Below are positions 3,886 through 36,054 of a stretch of DNA of 64,000 bases, piece by piece (position 1 is the stretch's first letter; each line of letters opens with the position of its first letter). The notes under the pieces were generated by a model. That model saw only the letters and a list, made by a program, of their open reading frames with translations. It was not told the DNA's origin and did no database searches. A program made the position numbers and the translations under genes. The DNA comes from Lachnospiraceae bacterium MA2020 (GTDB taxonomy: Bacteria > Bacillota > Clostridia > Lachnospirales > Lachnospiraceae): contig JQKK01000008.1 of the NCBI GenBank assembly GCA_000746015.1, forward strand, positions 62,001 through 126,000. Direction: 5' to 3'.

Positions 3886-3920
3886 TATTTTTTATATACA
3901 TTTTTCATGTATACAGCAAA

Positions 3921-3947
3921 GGTGTCTGACTATAATAGTCAGACACC
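3921..3947 (-). terminator. Hairpin downstream of the NhaC-family gene
   Basis: A perfect 13-bp inverted repeat (arms GGTGTCTGACTAT and its complement) around one central base. It lies 24 bases past the antiporter stop codon. The following minus-strand bases are only moderately T-rich (TTTGCTGTAT), so termination is likely but not textbook. Confidence 0.6.
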
Positions 3948-3970
3948 TTCTTTGTATGATATTAACCTGT

Positions 3971-30358: not shown

Positions 30359-31225
30359 TTATTTAATAGTAGTTATATCTTTGCCGAACCACTTTGTTGA
30401 GATTTCTGCCATCTTGCCGTCAGCTGCCATCTCCTTAAGCACTGCATCGACTTTATCCCTGAGCTCTGTGTTGCCTTTCTTAAAACCAACACCGTACTCT
30501 TCTGAAGCAAATGGCTCATCAAGAGTTCTGAGGTTAAGTCCGCCTGTTGTGATCTTGTACTCAGCAACAGTGCTATCCATGGCGATCGCATCAACAGCGC
30601 CCATGTCAAGATCCATCAAAGCTGTGTTGTAGTCAGGTGTTGTCTGAAGTGTGCCAAATGAATCAGCAAGTGCCTTGTTTGCATCATCTTTAAGTGCTGC
30701 CTCAGCAGAAGAATCAGCCTGAACTTCTACTGTCTTTCCTGCAAGATCAGCTGCTGAATTGATATCAGAATCGTCTCTTACTACAAATACCTGGCTGTTA
30801 TCAAGGTATGGGCTTGACCACTCATATCCATCCTCACGACCTGTCATTGTAAAGCCGTTCCAGATACAGTCGATCGTACCGGCATCAAGCTCAGCATCCT
30901 TTGAATCCCATGCTATAGGCTGATATACAACTTCAAGACCAAGTCTTTTTGCTGCCTCAGCTGCAAGGTCAAGATCAAATCCTGTAAAACTTCCATCCTC
31001 TCCCTTAAATCCCATAGGTGGGAAGTCCTGATCAAAGCCTACTGTAAATGTAGCTGAATTTGTATCAGCAGCAGGTGCTTCTGAAGCGCTTTCGCTTGCC
31101 TGTGTGCTCTCTGCAGCTGCTTCACTGGAAGCACCTGCCTTTTCAGAAGATGCACTTCCGCATGCTGTAAGTGAAAAAGCCATTACTGCTGCCATAGAAA
31201 TAGCTGTGATAATTCTTCTTTTCAT
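30359..31225 (-). CDS. Polar amino-acid ABC transporter, substrate-binding lipoprotein
   Basis: The solute receptor. The start at 31225 (MKRRIITAIS) has GGAGGGAG directly upstream and gives a proper lipoprotein signal ending LTAC with lipidated Cys22; the 25 further codons upstream of it are rejected. A Ser/Ala/Glu linker precedes the family 3 binding domain (FPPMGFKGEDGSFTGFDLDLA, WNGFTMTGRE). The amino acid cannot be named. Expression starts at the promoter 31271-31300, which carries two palindromes. Confidence 0.93.
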   Translation of the reverse strand: MKRRIITAISMAAVMAFSLTACGSASSEKAGASSEAAAESTQASESASEAPAADTNSATFTVGFDQDFPPMGFKGEDGSFTGFDLDLAAEAAKRLGLEVVYQPIAWDSKDAELDAGTIDCIWNGFTMTGREDGYEWSSPYLDNSQVFVVRDDSDINSAADLAGKTVEVQADSSAEAALKDDANKALADSFGTLQTTPDYNTALMDLDMGAVDAIAMDSTVAEYKITTGGLNLRTLDEPFASEEYGVGFKKGNTELRDKVDAVLKEMAADGKMAEISTKWFGKDITTIK

Positions 31226-31237
31226 AATCTCCCTCCA

Positions 31238-31253
31238 AAAATTGACCAATTTT
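31238..31253 (-). promoter_or_regulatory. Palindrome in the transporter leader
   Basis: AAAATTG and CAATTTT around two bases form a perfect 16-base inverted repeat, four to five bases upstream of the ribosome site. It could be an operator or a weak RNA hairpin. Confidence 0.35.
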
Positions 31254-31270
31254 ACTCTGTTTGCTCTGTT

Positions 31271-31300
31271 ATGGTAGCACACTAAAGTGCAAATAGTCAA
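31271..31300 (-). promoter_or_regulatory. Promoter of the ABC transporter with CACTWWAGTG palindrome
   Basis: On the minus strand, TTGACT (31300-31295), 18 bases and TACCAT (31276-31271), with an extended TGC before the -10. The palindrome CACTTTAGTG (31289-31280) sits in the spacer, three bases before the -10, exactly as in the promoter near 1661. Confidence 0.6.
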
Positions 31301-31384
31301 GGTAAATCAAAGTTTGTTTTTTTATAGGTACAAAATTTATATTTTAAACACAATTTAAACACATAATCTTTTTATAATAGGCAT

Positions 31385-31462
31385 CAAGATAGTTGATTAG
31401 TTCACTATCTCCCCCTCATAAGTATAGGACCTGTGAGTCACCCCTCACAGGTCCTTCTCCTT
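31385..31462 (+). ncRNA. Candidate small RNA in the transporter-rqcH gap
   Basis: A TATAAT (31373-31378, poor -35) precedes two hairpins on the plus strand: AGATAGT/ACTATCT with a ten-base loop (31387-31410), then, after a single-stranded CCCCCTC, a perfect 12-bp hairpin (31426-31455) followed by TCTCCTTTT. No coding frame fits. This gap (31226-31542) is the only one above 300 bases. It could instead be a terminator or attenuator ahead of rqcH. Confidence 0.4.
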
Positions 31463-31542
31463 TTAAAAACAAATTCGTTTTAAGAATCCACTTTTTATGA
31501 TAGAATCATATAATATTACTAGCATTACAGAGGTGAAACACT

Positions 31543-33303
31543 ATGGCATTTGACGGAGTTACTACTGCCGCCATGGCAGCAGAGTTAAATAAAAGAATAA
31601 ACGGCGGCAGGCTATATAAAATTGCCCAGCCGGAAGCAGATGAGCTTCTCTTTACTATCAAGACCACTAATGGAAAGACCGAAAGGCTCTTAATTTCAGC
31701 CGGAGCTTCTCTTCCATTTATTTATTTCACAGAAACTAATAAGCCAAGTCCCATGACTGCGCCAAACTTCTGCATGCTGCTCCGTAAGCACCTGCAGAAT
31801 GGCCGCATCACTGAGATCTCACAGCCGGGGCTTGAGCGTATCATAAGAATATATGTGGAGCATCTCGATGAAATGGGTGATCTTTGCCGCAAAGTTCTCG
31901 TAATAGAGATAATGGGCAAGCACTCAAACATCATATTCTGTGATGACAACGACAATATCATTGATTCTATCAAACACGTAGGTCTCACAGTCAGCTCAGT
32001 CCGCGAGGTACTTCCCGGAAGAAAATACTTTATCCCTGAAACTCAGGACAAGCTCGATCCTACATCAGATATTGATTTCGATTCATTCAAGGCAGCTGTT
32101 TCAAAGACAGCCCAGGAAAACATCAAAGCGATCTACAACACATTTACAGGTTTTTCACCAGTGATGGCTTCAGAGCTCTGCCACAGAGCCGAGATAGATG
32201 GTAACGCTTCTATCGCTGCCAATAGCGATGAAGATTACAAAAAACTCTATAATGAGTTCTGCCGCCTTATGAATGACATAAAGACCGGCAGTTTCTCACC
32301 AGAGATCATATATGAAGATGCTGTTCCGCGTGAGTTTGCCTCTGTAGAGTTAAGCCAGTATTCTGACCTTGAGATAGAAAAATATGAAACAATGTCAGAA
32401 GTGCTTGAAAACTACTATGCAAAAAAGAACAGTGTTACACGTATCCGTCAGCGCTCTGCCGACCTCAGGAAGATAGTTTCAACTATCCTTGAGCGTGATT
32501 ATAAGAAACTTAATATACAGCGCAAGCAGCTTAGCGATACTGAGAAAAAAGATAAATTCAGAGTATATGGCGAGCTCTTAAACACTTATGGCTACAGTGC
32601 TCCAGAAGGTGCAAAGTCCATCACATGTGATAACTACTATACAAATGAGGAGATAACAATCCCTCTCGATCCTCAGCTTTCGGCAACAGATAATGCCAAA
32701 AAATATTTTGACCGTTACCAAAAGCTCAAGCGTACCGAAGAAGCTGTCTCTGTACAGATGAAGGAAACTGAGGATGATATCGCTCACCTTGAGTCCATAC
32801 AGAATTCTCTCGATATCGCATCTGACGAGGCAGATCTCAAGCAGATACGTGACGAGCTTGCCGACAGCGGATACGTAAAAAAGCATGTTGGCAAGAAAAA
32901 GGGCGAACGCAAAATGACAAGTCATCCACTTCACTACGTTTCAAGTGACGGATTTGACCTCTATGTCGGCAAAAACAATTATCAGAATGATGAGCTCACT
33001 TTCAAGTTTGCAAACGGAAATGACTGGTGGTTCCACTCAAAGAAGTTCCCGGGATCACACGTCATCATGAAAACCGGTGGCGTTGAAAGTGATAAGATCC
33101 CGGACAGAGCCTTTAATGAAGCCGGTGCTCTTGCAGCCTACTATTCTAAAGGGCGTGGTCAGTCAAAAGTAGAGATTGACTATGTGCTTAAAAAAGAAGT
33201 CAAAAAGCCTGCAGGCAGTAAACCCGGCTTTGTGGTCTACTACACAAACTACTCAATGGCTATCGACTCTGACATAAGCACGCTTAAACTTGTAGAAGAA
33301 TAA
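31543..33303 (+). CDS. rqcH: Ribosome-rescue factor RqcH (NFACT family)
   Basis: Binds stalled 50S-peptidyl-tRNA complexes and adds C-terminal alanine tails that mark the peptide for degradation; older names are fibronectin-binding protein A or YloA. At 586 residues it has the NFACT-N domain (1-~280, MAFDGVTTAAMAAEL, EIMGKHSNIIF), a coiled-coil middle (~290-440) and the NFACT-R domain (YVGKNNYQNDELTF, DWWFHSKKFPGSHVI). GAGG precedes the ATG. It ends at a shared terminator facing yraN. Confidence 0.94.
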   Translation: MAFDGVTTAAMAAELNKRINGGRLYKIAQPEADELLFTIKTTNGKTERLLISAGASLPFIYFTETNKPSPMTAPNFCMLLRKHLQNGRITEISQPGLERIIRIYVEHLDEMGDLCRKVLVIEIMGKHSNIIFCDDNDNIIDSIKHVGLTVSSVREVLPGRKYFIPETQDKLDPTSDIDFDSFKAAVSKTAQENIKAIYNTFTGFSPVMASELCHRAEIDGNASIAANSDEDYKKLYNEFCRLMNDIKTGSFSPEIIYEDAVPREFASVELSQYSDLEIEKYETMSEVLENYYAKKNSVTRIRQRSADLRKIVSTILERDYKKLNIQRKQLSDTEKKDKFRVYGELLNTYGYSAPEGAKSITCDNYYTNEEITIPLDPQLSATDNAKKYFDRYQKLKRTEEAVSVQMKETEDDIAHLESIQNSLDIASDEADLKQIRDELADSGYVKKHVGKKKGERKMTSHPLHYVSSDGFDLYVGKNNYQNDELTFKFANGNDWWFHSKKFPGSHVIMKTGGVESDKIPDRAFNEAGALAAYYSKGRGQSKVEIDYVLKKEVKKPAGSKPGFVVYYTNYSMAIDSDISTLKLVEE

Positions 33304-33347: not shown

Positions 33348-33708
33348 ATCTTATATAGTTAAATGCATTTTTTATCCACTGGATATTTTTGCCGGAAATG
33401 GCTATGACATCAAATCTGTATAGATGATCTTCTGAAAGGCTGTTTGCAGCCCTGAAATAATCTGAAACTCTGCTTATTTTTCGCTGCTTTTTGAAATTGA
33501 CTGCCTGACAGGCAAGTCCATGCGCTTCACTTTTTCTGTATTTTACTTCACCAAAACATATAGTCCCACCATCAGTATATATAATATCTATCTCGCCATA
33601 TCTTACTCTGTAATTCATCTCAACAATACGGCATCCATTTTTCTTAAGATAAGAGGCGGCAAGTCTCTCCTCCTCACCGCCCAGTTTTCTTGTGTTGTTT
33701 CTTTGCAC
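33346..33708 (-). CDS. yraN: UPF0102 family protein YraN
   Basis: A 120-residue protein with an endonuclease-like fold (PD-(D/E)XK relatives): GEIDIIY and FGEVKYRK hold the acidic and Lys residues. It starts at GTG (33708) inside the end of the ylqH-like gene, a 35-base overlap. The biochemical role is not established in the family. Confidence 0.9.
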   Translation of the reverse strand: MQRNNTRKLGGEEERLAASYLKKNGCRIVEMNYRVRYGEIDIIYTDGGTICFGEVKYRKSEAHGLACQAVNFKKQRKISRVSDYFRAANSLSEDHLYRFDVIAISGKNIQWIKNAFNYIR

Positions 33709-34006
33709 TTATCTTTTCTGCTCCTTCCATTTTTGCCCGCAGCTTATCCATCCTGTCAACAAATACAAGAATTTCAGCTACAACCTCGTAGAGATCCGGA
33801 GGAATAAGCTCCCCTATCTCCAGTTTTGAAAGTGTCTCTGCAAGCTTGTCATCTACATGGACAGGTACGTCTGCTTCTTTAGCAGTCTCTATTATCTTTT
33901 CGGCGACTTTTCCTTTTCCGGATGCAAGCACTGTAGGCGCCGCATCCTTTGGATCATAAGCTATTGCGACCGCGGTCTTGGTCTTTTCTTTATCGTTCTT
34001 CGCCAT
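33674..34006 (-). CDS. ylqH: FlhB C-terminal-like protein (YlqH type)
   Basis: A 110-residue protein that matches only the cytoplasmic domain of FlhB: AIAYDPKDAAPTVLASGKG, VPVHVDDKLAETLSKLEIGELIPPDLYEVVAEIL. The autocleavage motif NPTH and the membrane domain are absent. The same stand-alone protein (YlqH) follows YlqG in Bacillus subtilis at this point of the genome. The role is unknown. GGAGA lies five bases before the ATG. Confidence 0.85.
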   Translation of the reverse strand: MAKNDKEKTKTAVAIAYDPKDAAPTVLASGKGKVAEKIIETAKEADVPVHVDDKLAETLSKLEIGELIPPDLYEVVAEILVFVDRMDKLRAKMEGAEKISAKKQHKKTGR

Positions 34007-34020
34007 ACTGCTCTCCTGCG

Positions 34021-36054
34021 CTATGCACGCACATCAAACGAAGTCTTTTGGATAAGTTTTGCATTACTTCCCTGATTAAACATTATCTCAGGAACTGATT
34101 TAGGCTCTTTATTTAATGACACATCCGAATGCATGTGATATCCCCGTCTTTCAAGGTTTGAATCAAGCTCCGGCAGGTGAGCTGCAATAAAATCAAGAAG
34201 TTCTTCACTCTGCAGGATAAAATGTGTACTTATCTTGTCATAATCACGCATTGTCACATGTATATCAACCGGCCCCAGATGCTCCATATCAAGGTGAAGC
34301 AACGCTGTACAATTTCCATCTTTTTTTGCAAGCTTCTTTTTATTGGTATAGACATATAGATCCCCATGTGCCGCAGAATCATTAAGCTTAAGCGGAAGCT
34401 GTACATAAGTCATGACATTATTCATTCCATTCATGAAATCAATATTTGACTTTAAGCTTTGCATGCCTTCTGCTAATGGCGTATCACTCTTTCCCATGGA
34501 TTTCAGCATTTCCAACGCATTGTCAGCCTGCTTCACTATTCTCTCATAGTATTCCTTAACTTTATCTGCATCAGCCACATTGGATGGCTCAAGCAAAAAC
34601 TGTCTTGTAATTTCATTTCGTAAAAGAAAACTGTACGGCTCAGACTTGATCAGCTCATCAACAGCTGCTCTCATCGCTTCATTTTGAATATTTCCGGAAT
34701 TTGCCTCTCTAATGACTGAACGTATCACATCCATCACCTGCTTGGTCGTCGTATCTCCAGAAGCGATCTTTTCTGTAACTTCTTCCGGAATCCCTGCATT
34801 TTTCAAGGCATCTGCGATTTTCTTTGTCCCTTCTGTCCCAAGCAGCTTGATCAAATCATCTGTAACCGCACCCGGGCGCAACATAGAACTGTCAGGCAAC
34901 GGATTAGTAGCCTTGATGCCACCCTCGCTTTCAGAAATGATCGATTCTGCACTTTTTCCAAAAGAAGCTGCTCTAAACAACTGGTCTCCCTTTGGAGAAG
35001 CCTGCCTTTCGTCGGCTACAGCTCTATCTTTAGCACTATCAGTGTTTACATTTTTTCCTTCACCTGCTCCGGATTTTCCATCCGCAATAATATCCTTATC
35101 GGAATTCTCAAATGACATAGGCTCTTTTTCATCAGCATTCTGTCCAAGTCCGGTTCCGGCATCCTTGCCCCCAGAGCCCCCTTCAAGCATCTCTGGCTCC
35201 GGGGATATACGTGCTGAAGCATTTACATCCGGGATCACTTCTGCCTGCGGCATCACATTTGGAATTTCAGGTCTTGCACTTTCCTGAACTCCGAGCAAAG
35301 TCATCAATTGCGCAGAATTGCCATTAAGGGCCTGTCCGACAGCCGTTGAAGTATCTGTTGAAACTTCTCCTAAAAAAGTATTTATCACGTTTTGATTAGC
35401 CTCAGGCGATTCTCCAGCTATACTCACAAAACCTTCAGCCAAAGAGCCTGCACTTTCAGCTATCTGATACTGCCCTTCTTTGTATGCCTCAAACTGCATA
35501 ACATTATCTTCAGTAAGCGGAATGCCGATCTCAGTCATCTGCACTATCGTAACCGGATCTGCAAGCGGATATGAAGCCGCCTTTTGAGACATAGCCTGAA
35601 GCGAGCCAATATCTATAGGAAGACCTCTTTCCATCATGGCGCCTACCATTTTTGCAGTTTCCGCCGTAATAGGAAGATTTGCTGCCGTCAACGCCTTCGC
35701 TACCGGAGAATTATTATCTAAATTTGCATAAAGTGGAATCAAAGTTATAGACGAACTGGATGCCCCCTTAACCTGAAAAGAAAGCATCTGCCCAATATTA
35801 ACTGATAGATCTGAAGAAACCTGCGCTTTTATAGTCGCATTATTACCAAGCAGGAGAGTCAGAGCCCCATCATCTTCCAATTCTGTGATCTGGCCCGAAA
35901 TAATATCTCCCGCCTTTACATAAACTACCTTATCCTGATCAACGAGCACATTGCGGGAAACCTCTGAAGCCTCAGAGATTACCTGCCTGCCACTCATATT
36001 TATCTGATTGTCTGCACTGTAGATACCCGAATTAGGATTAACCGAAATATTCAT
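34021..36054 (-). CDS. ylqG: FliK-like hook-length-control-domain protein (YlqG type)
   Basis: A 677-residue protein. The C-terminal part (about 545-650, LKLNDSAAHGDLYVYTNKKK, LGPVDIHVTMRD) matches the FliK C-terminal domain. The N-terminal region (50-130) is beta-rich, and the middle (about 220-390) is a low-complexity Gly/Ser/Glu linker. It overlaps rnhB by four bases (ATGA) and is followed by the FlhB-like gene, repeating the Bacillus rnhB-ylqG-ylqH order. No other flagellar gene is in the window. Confidence 0.8.
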   Translation of the reverse strand: MNISVNPNSGIYSADNQINMSGRQVISEASEVSRNVLVDQDKVVYVKAGDIISGQITELEDDGALTLLLGNNATIKAQVSSDLSVNIGQMLSFQVKGASSSSITLIPLYANLDNNSPVAKALTAANLPITAETAKMVGAMMERGLPIDIGSLQAMSQKAASYPLADPVTIVQMTEIGIPLTEDNVMQFEAYKEGQYQIAESAGSLAEGFVSIAGESPEANQNVINTFLGEVSTDTSTAVGQALNGNSAQLMTLLGVQESARPEIPNVMPQAEVIPDVNASARISPEPEMLEGGSGGKDAGTGLGQNADEKEPMSFENSDKDIIADGKSGAGEGKNVNTDSAKDRAVADERQASPKGDQLFRAASFGKSAESIISESEGGIKATNPLPDSSMLRPGAVTDDLIKLLGTEGTKKIADALKNAGIPEEVTEKIASGDTTTKQVMDVIRSVIREANSGNIQNEAMRAAVDELIKSEPYSFLLRNEITRQFLLEPSNVADADKVKEYYERIVKQADNALEMLKSMGKSDTPLAEGMQSLKSNIDFMNGMNNVMTYVQLPLKLNDSAAHGDLYVYTNKKKLAKKDGNCTALLHLDMEHLGPVDIHVTMRDYDKISTHFILQSEELLDFIAAHLPELDSNLERRGYHMHSDVSLNKEPKSVPEIMFNQGSNAKLIQKTSFDVRA

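Follow-up and report, generated by a model that had tools for sequence, protein, structure and literature searches.

Several sRNAs of low-GC Gram-positive bacteria carry C-rich motifs, and the available part of one source names RsaE and FsrA among them (PMC4132741). The same portion of that source describes LhrC of Listeria monocytogenes as a multicopy RNA, controlled by LisRK, with UCCC motifs in its loops and linker, that blocks translation initiation (PMC4132741). For the streptococcal csRNAs, which belong to the CiaRH regulon, the accessible text gives the promoter consensus NTTAAG-N5-TTTAAG (PMC3091779; csRNAs are also treated in PMC8186281).

Positions 31385-31462 of the window (the whole 64-kb stretch of Lachnospiraceae DNA analysed here) very probably hold a small RNA gene. 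On present sequence evidence we also consider it likely that the product is a multicopy, two-component-controlled anti-Shine-Dalgarno sRNA with an LhrC-like action. The features of the locus are as follows.

30359..31225, minus strand: amino-acid-type ABC transporter substrate-binding protein (SBP_bac_3), the divergent neighbour
31343..31363, plus strand: 11-bp-period direct repeat TTTAAACACAATTTAAACACA, putative OmpR-type response-regulator site in place of a -35 box
31373..31378, plus strand: -10 box TATAAT, 9 nt past the repeat, the modal spacing (45/72)
31385..31462, plus strand: core of the putative small RNA, its start placed from the -10 box and its 3' end uncertain; homologues known
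31387..31410, plus strand: hairpin 1 (AGATAGT/ACTATCT), a predicted fold with a 7-bp lower stem and 2 inner pairs
31407..31422, plus strand: conserved ATCTCCCCCTCATAAG, containing the unpaired CCCCCTCATAAG, the proposed anti-Shine-Dalgarno seed
31411-31425, plus strand: unpaired linker, with CCCCC at 31411-31415
31426..31455, plus strand: hairpin 2, 12 perfect pairs with a C-rich loop, TCACCC, a second possible contact
31456..31467, plus strand: TCTCCTTTTAAA, the imperfect T-tail of hairpin 2 and possibly a further anti-Shine-Dalgarno segment
31487..31514, plus strand: candidate own promoter of rqcH (TCCACT-16-TATAAT, 9/12), outside the RNA
31543..33303, plus strand: rqcH (NFACT protein), the downstream neighbour

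A first-pass annotation had described a TATAAT box, a 7-bp hairpin, a C-run, a perfect 12-bp hairpin and a T-rich tail at this locus, and each of these was found again, base by base, when the sequence was re-extracted. It had overlooked both the direct repeat TTTAAACACAATTTAAACACA and a conserved TCTCCTTTT after hairpin 2. The predicted fold of 31385-31462 has a stability of -29.5 kcal/mol (z = -6.48), equalled by none of 200 dinucleotide shuffles, and perfect hairpins of at least 12 bp with loops of 3-8 nt occur at three places in the 64 kb versus none in three shuffled windows. On average, the first bases of the linker are unpaired with a probability of 0.8-0.9 and the remainder with one of about 0.6. 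Elsewhere in the window, at 3919-3949, lies a perfect 14-bp palindromic hairpin, AAGGTGTCTGACTATAATAGTCAGACACCTT, with TATAAT at its centre; AAGGTGTCTGAC from this hairpin is also present in 2 of 418 fetched loci, and the hairpin is possibly a small repeat element.

The distribution of the RNA was followed at three levels. The 16-mer ATCTCCCCCTCATAAG is found at 14 sites in 13 of the 48 genomes of the genus, while its reversed-pattern control gave none. An 18-mer scan of a collection of 84,980 species returned at least 119 stretches (about 7.5 expected in random sequence); among the matches listed, 114 of 119 titles name Lachnospiraceae or its genera (Butyrivibrio, Acetatifactor, Kineothrix), four merely a bacterium or Clostridia, and one Shewanella. 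Finally, a covariance model of hairpin 1 and the linker matched 121 of the 397 Lachnospiraceae genomes, spread over 106 of 334 genera, and 49 of the 121 had 2-4 copies. The invariance of the linker in these sets is partly forced by the 16- and 18-mer search patterns and by the training of the model, which leans to its training set; the model alignment (A2) took in 60 of 74 members and omitted L142, L117 and 12 with a long or odd hairpin 1. Forty regions around mostly weaker model hits yielded 54 matches, with CCCCCTCAT in 52 of the 54 and a C-run varying in length from 4 to 7.

Twenty-nine sites in those 40 regions, together with three among the strong hits, form a second subfamily (B). Its members have the same promoter, hairpin 1, CCCCC(C)UCAUAAA, a second hairpin and a CUCUCAUUCC block, and a terminator-like hairpin that ends about 140 nt past the inferred start; they were picked by CTCATTCC, so that the constancy of the CUCUCAUUCC block is by selection. 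Tandem copies occur at L087 (three, at 229-base spacing), L244, L247 and L264. Two loci, L004 and L008, represent a subtype with about 50 nt of extra sequence between linker and hairpin 2 and share ACTCAATTC, and L374 and L375 hold diverged copies (CTATCAATCCCCCTCTCATG and GCTATCGCCCCTCATAAAA, respectively) that keep the promoter repeat in genomes also bearing intact copies, an apparent case of decay or of a change of seed. Many members run into a strong hairpin of their own with a T-run. TCTCC stands just past hairpin 2 at 13 of the 14 own-genus sites, the 14th being cut by a contig end, and a further terminator-like hairpin was seen by eye downstream in L004, L068 and L069; given these two features, the transcript may exceed about 75 nt.

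Searches for a known family gave nothing beyond tRNAs. With Rfam release 15, the whole window at gathering threshold matched a tRNA elsewhere and no other family, positions 31200-31600 at E <= 5 gave one chance match and nothing else, and seven loci of both subfamilies gave a tRNA and no other family. No description of this RNA family was found in the portion of the open-licence literature available. A mobile-element origin was tried with one subfamily-B copy and rejected (no plasmid match; 4 unannotated faecal phage records); a 17-mer of the RNA is present in 8 viral contigs.

Covariation in relatives had been put forward as a check on the structures, and it is borne out for hairpin 2 but not for hairpin 1, which is nearly invariant. 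Within the genus, 6 of the 12 pairs of hairpin 2 are changed on both sides among 5 distinct sequences and 98.2% of cells are paired; neither any of 500 shuffles nor any slid version matched the covariation score of the alignment (A5, which holds 10 of the 14 own-genus sites and omits two that carry an insert, another that a contig end truncates and a near-duplicate). Over 53 distinct model hits, 98.6% of cells in the lower stem of hairpin 1 are paired, and no compensatory change was found in that stem in the model-hit and own-genus alignments. Some Butyrivibrio copies have a different 5' arm in hairpin 1 with pairing retained, and 1 of 31 subfamily-B sequences has both partners of one inner pair altered; the consensus fold of that subfamily missed hairpin 2, which was probably split by the automatic alignment.

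These data bear on two alternatives to an RNA gene. A conserved terminator or repetitive DNA element that gives rise to no separate RNA would account for a perfect hairpin with a T-rich tail and for multiple, in places tandem, copies. Conservation peaks in the single-stranded linker, however, rather than in hairpin 2, 45 of 72 members keep the same distance between promoter repeat and -10 box, copies recur at the murE/recJ position described below instead of being scattered, and matches to plasmids (none, for the subfamily-B copy) and in viral collections (few) are scarce; we judge such an element to be highly improbable. The second alternative is a small peptide. It had been claimed that no open frame fits, which overlooks a 35-codon frame with a possible TTG start at 31393 that spans the RNA to 31500; what stands of the claim is that this frame has no preceding Shine-Dalgarno sequence and is not conserved. 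Thirty-three of the 72 members lack an open frame from start to linker, the other frames differ, the variable length of the C-run in the 54 model hits shifts the frame, and hairpin 2 keeps its pairing while its sequence changes. Coding for a peptide is thus extremely unlikely.

Both the window and G015 have the element upstream of rqcH and co-oriented with it, an arrangement compatible with a cis-acting leader or attenuator of rqcH in which the 12-bp hairpin would be a regulated terminator in the 5' UTR. A DNA search of 61 genomes gave five strong non-self matches (E < 1e-8), in G033, G009, G015, G014 and G031; 54 of the 61 matched at E <= 1, mostly through short chance matches. In the congener G033, a near-full-length homologue (86% identical) is 285 kb from rqcH, in G009, G014 and G031 homologue and rqcH are on different contigs, and in G003 the element sits past the 3' end of a convergent rqcH. 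Over 157 loci, in a count that includes some genomes more than once and names murE and recJ from sequence without a family search, recJ is a neighbour in 77, murE in 70 and rqcH in 6, the commonest site being between a divergent murE and a convergent recJ. Since its homologues are unlinked to rqcH, and many members end in a strong hairpin and T-run of their own, a role for the RNA as an rqcH leader is very unlikely. The earlier remark that the promoter of rqcH lies further on is plausible, with a candidate at 31487-31514 that is a consensus match.

Three observations on neighbouring genes may be recorded here. Among NCBIfam models, rqcH scores best with 'fibronectin-binding protein EfbA', though far below its cut-off, which is a naming hazard for an NFACT protein. 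Just past rqcH, at 33674-36054 on the minus strand, the window holds an FlhB C-terminal homologue (PF01312) and a FliK-like hook-length protein (PF02120). A flagellin-like gene, read by eye, adjoins the RNA gene in 11 of the 157 loci (e.g. L153).

The best -35 hexamer for the TATAAT at 31373-31378 makes a pair of only 7/12, i.e. none that fits, which suits an activator-dependent promoter. What occupies the -35 region is a direct repeat with an 11-bp period, as is characteristic of OmpR-type regulons. A CACA/CATA repeat of this period lies upstream of 70 of 74 non-redundant members (base-shuffled mean 0.41). Two of the 74, L142 (Shewanella) and L117 (Butyrivibrio AC2005), were dropped as chance pattern matches, having neither the repeat nor two hairpins, and were excluded from the promoter counts; of the 72 distinct members kept, 69 have the repeat followed by a -10 box (base-shuffled mean 0.18), with exactly 9 nt between them in 45, the window copy included. 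In its own genome, the strict repeat with at most one mismatch matches solely at 31343-31363. We also considered the repeat as the mark of a wider regulon and rejected this idea. A repeat pattern that itself misses the window's own promoter matched 45 sites across 15 genomes and its reversed control 24. Thirty loci, when read, comprised 13 RNA promoters, 2 decayed RNA copies and 15 others; by eye, these 15 had no downstream gene in common, apart from those of sister genomes and a coding-region match that appeared twice.

The promoter layout suggests that an OmpR-type regulator probably controls the RNA, and two candidates for the cognate protein were considered. RR1, an OmpR-family response regulator (PF00072 + PF00486), adjoins several subfamily-B copies; its nearest NCBIfam models are VanR and YycF, both below cut-off and from a 101-residue piece. 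Among the matches listed, 75 genomes have both the RNA and RR1, and in 24 of these the two genes are at most 5 kb apart; RR1 matches (E <= 1e-100) occur in 94 of 121 RNA-bearing vs. 117 of 276 RNA-lacking genomes (Fisher 3e-11, uncorrected for kinship, with about seven candidates scored per genome). Within the genus it does not track the RNA, being present in 15 of 48 genomes, 4 RNA-bearing and 11 RNA-lacking, and as a regulator in the present genome it was rejected, as it is absent (best match 52% identity). RR2, a second regulator of 48-53% identity, is encoded here at G000:C1:133979-134671, beside a gene that we take for its sensor kinase. At E <= 1e-60, 9 of the 13 RNA-bearing congeners have it and none of the 35 that lack the RNA (Fisher 4e-7, again uncorrected for kinship); no 11-bp-period repeat was seen near the start of the RR2 gene.

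The exposed C-rich linker is complementary to AUGAGGGGGA, which is found at the Shine-Dalgarno positions of real mRNAs: at the ribosome site of fliW in the own genome and at those of fliI and flhG in two relatives. Across seven congeners, the own genome included, the complement ATGAGGGGGA occurs at 53 sites compared with 14 for the reversed pattern, 8 of the 53 being the RNA itself. Fifty of the 53 were read (the other three are RNA copies), of which 48 are distinct and 4 of those are RNA. Sixteen of the remaining 44 distinct non-self sites are followed after 2-9 nt by a frame of 100 codons or more; the other 28 are off ribosome-site positions, 14 inside a sense reading frame and 14 elsewhere. 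The ribosome-site matches in the own genome include those of fliW (PF02623, E 6e-34), a GH25 muramidase and an alpha/beta hydrolase, and in the relatives G064 and G065 they include fliI and flhG; the own-genome fliI has ATGAGGGGAG ahead of its start. GH25- and alpha/beta-hydrolase-like genes, identified by eye, flank the RNA in the subfamily-B loci L227, L249, L253, L417 and L281; in the own genome, AUGAGGGGGA ribosome sites are found at genes of both kinds (PF01183, PF12146), and the likeness of the flanking genes may be coincidence.

The presence of three flagellar families among 14 has a p value of 0.001-0.0025, on the assumption that flagellar genes make up 1.5-2% of genes. Pairing with the flhG start region is predicted to be stronger in RNA-bearing congeners (mean -16.0, n=11) than in those lacking the RNA (-10.0, n=18; p 0.0003), and the difference persists when RNA-bearing sister clades are collapsed (p 0.003) and when G064/G065 are also left out (0.007). 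The rqcH control went in the opposite direction (n=7 and 19, respectively; p 0.98), and for fliI the difference between RNA-bearing and RNA-lacking congeners did not reach significance (p 0.10, or 0.06 after collapsing). The tests of flhG and fliI, chosen after those matches were known, each used 29 of 30 fetched loci and the rqcH control 26 of 30, from 48 genomes searched; the rows omitted belonged to other genera or were truncated by the end of a contig. Flagellar genes can be named as targets only tentatively.

Over the 542 start regions of the window and the named loci, the linker favours start regions over coding sequence by a modest margin (-2.0 kcal/mol, where 20 shuffled linkers gave -0.8 +/- 0.6), and its strong pairings, those at -15 or better, number 13, little above the 11.4 for shuffles; the UUCUCCUUUUAAA segment favours start regions by 2.8 kcal/mol. 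Such a modest preference would fit an RNA whose main partner is a protein, a C-rich-RNA-binding factor that it titrates, rather than mRNAs with which it pairs, as would the near-invariance of the linker across genera with differing mRNAs and the presence of hairpin 2 loops with at least three C in 24 of 72 members. The position of the 16 AUGAGGGGGA sites among the 44 and the stronger flhG pairing in RNA-bearing congeners speak against it, and we consider it unlikely. Anti-Shine-Dalgarno base pairing is, in our assessment, the more plausible main mode of the RNA.

Altogether, the first-pass proposal of a small RNA is upheld by its independence of rqcH, its multicopy conservation, the covariation of hairpin 2, the promoter layout and the position of complementary ribosome sites. 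We propose that the gene at 31385-31462 stands alone and specifies a small regulatory RNA, one of a family that spans the Lachnospiraceae and is often multicopy. A response regulator of the OmpR/PhoB type would bind the repeat at 31343-31363 and activate the TATAAT promoter. The RNA would fold into two hairpins, both predicted and the second backed by covariation, exposing CUCCCCCUCAUAAG between them, which would pair with G-rich Shine-Dalgarno regions of the AUGAGGGGGA type and so block ribosome binding; further contacts may come from the C-rich hairpin 2 loop and from UCUCCUUUU. The leading candidate targets would be flagellar genes, fliW here and fliI and flhG in relatives.

Human gut and rumen communities are rich in Lachnospiraceae, and a widespread RNA with its promoter element, candidate regulators and candidate targets offers a direct route into the post-transcriptional control of these bacteria. 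A further, speculative and rather doubtful extension is that a dedicated Lachnospiraceae two-component system acts mainly via this RNA, the repeat being almost private to RNA genes, to control the translation of motility (fliW, fliI, flhG) and cell-surface genes. If true, a signal would be passed to translational control through an sRNA-borne regulon in about a third of the family. To our knowledge, this would be the third Gram-positive lineage, after Listeria and streptococci, to join OmpR-type signalling to multicopy C-rich sRNAs.

How does the RNA compare with the systems described at the outset? Like LhrC, it is multicopy and has two stem-loops, here predicted, with a single-stranded linker between them. 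The UCCC-type motifs of LhrC have their counterpart in the C-rich linker and hairpin 2 loop of the window copy, whereas its hairpin 1 loop is not C-rich. LisR is an OmpR-type regulator, and on the side of two-component control what is seen here is a repeat of the right type; the block of translation initiation, shown for LhrC, is predicted here. An LhrC model exists in Rfam and the window RNA does not match it or any other family there; it has its own linker and repeat sequences and its host is a member of the Lachnospiraceae. As far as the accessible parts of the literature describe them, the csRNAs share an 11-bp-period repeat just before the -10 box, a 5' stem-loop, an unpaired anti-Shine-Dalgarno segment, a 3' terminator and several copies. 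By the same accounts they differ in that the TTTAAA-N5-TTTAAA of the window lacks the invariant G of TTTAAG, the distance from TTTAAA to TATAAT is 13 nt (31360-31372) rather than 10, and the anti-Shine-Dalgarno segment is 5' of CAU, so that joint pairing with Shine-Dalgarno sequence and AUG is impossible. RsaE and FsrA, in the portion of the source available, likewise aim an exposed C-rich segment at Shine-Dalgarno sequences, but no Rfam family other than the tRNA elsewhere reached its gathering score in the window. Since the defining features of both LhrC and the csRNAs fail, we assign the RNA to neither; by its predicted function, the nearest known systems are LhrC and the streptococcal csRNAs, beside which it stands as a separate family.
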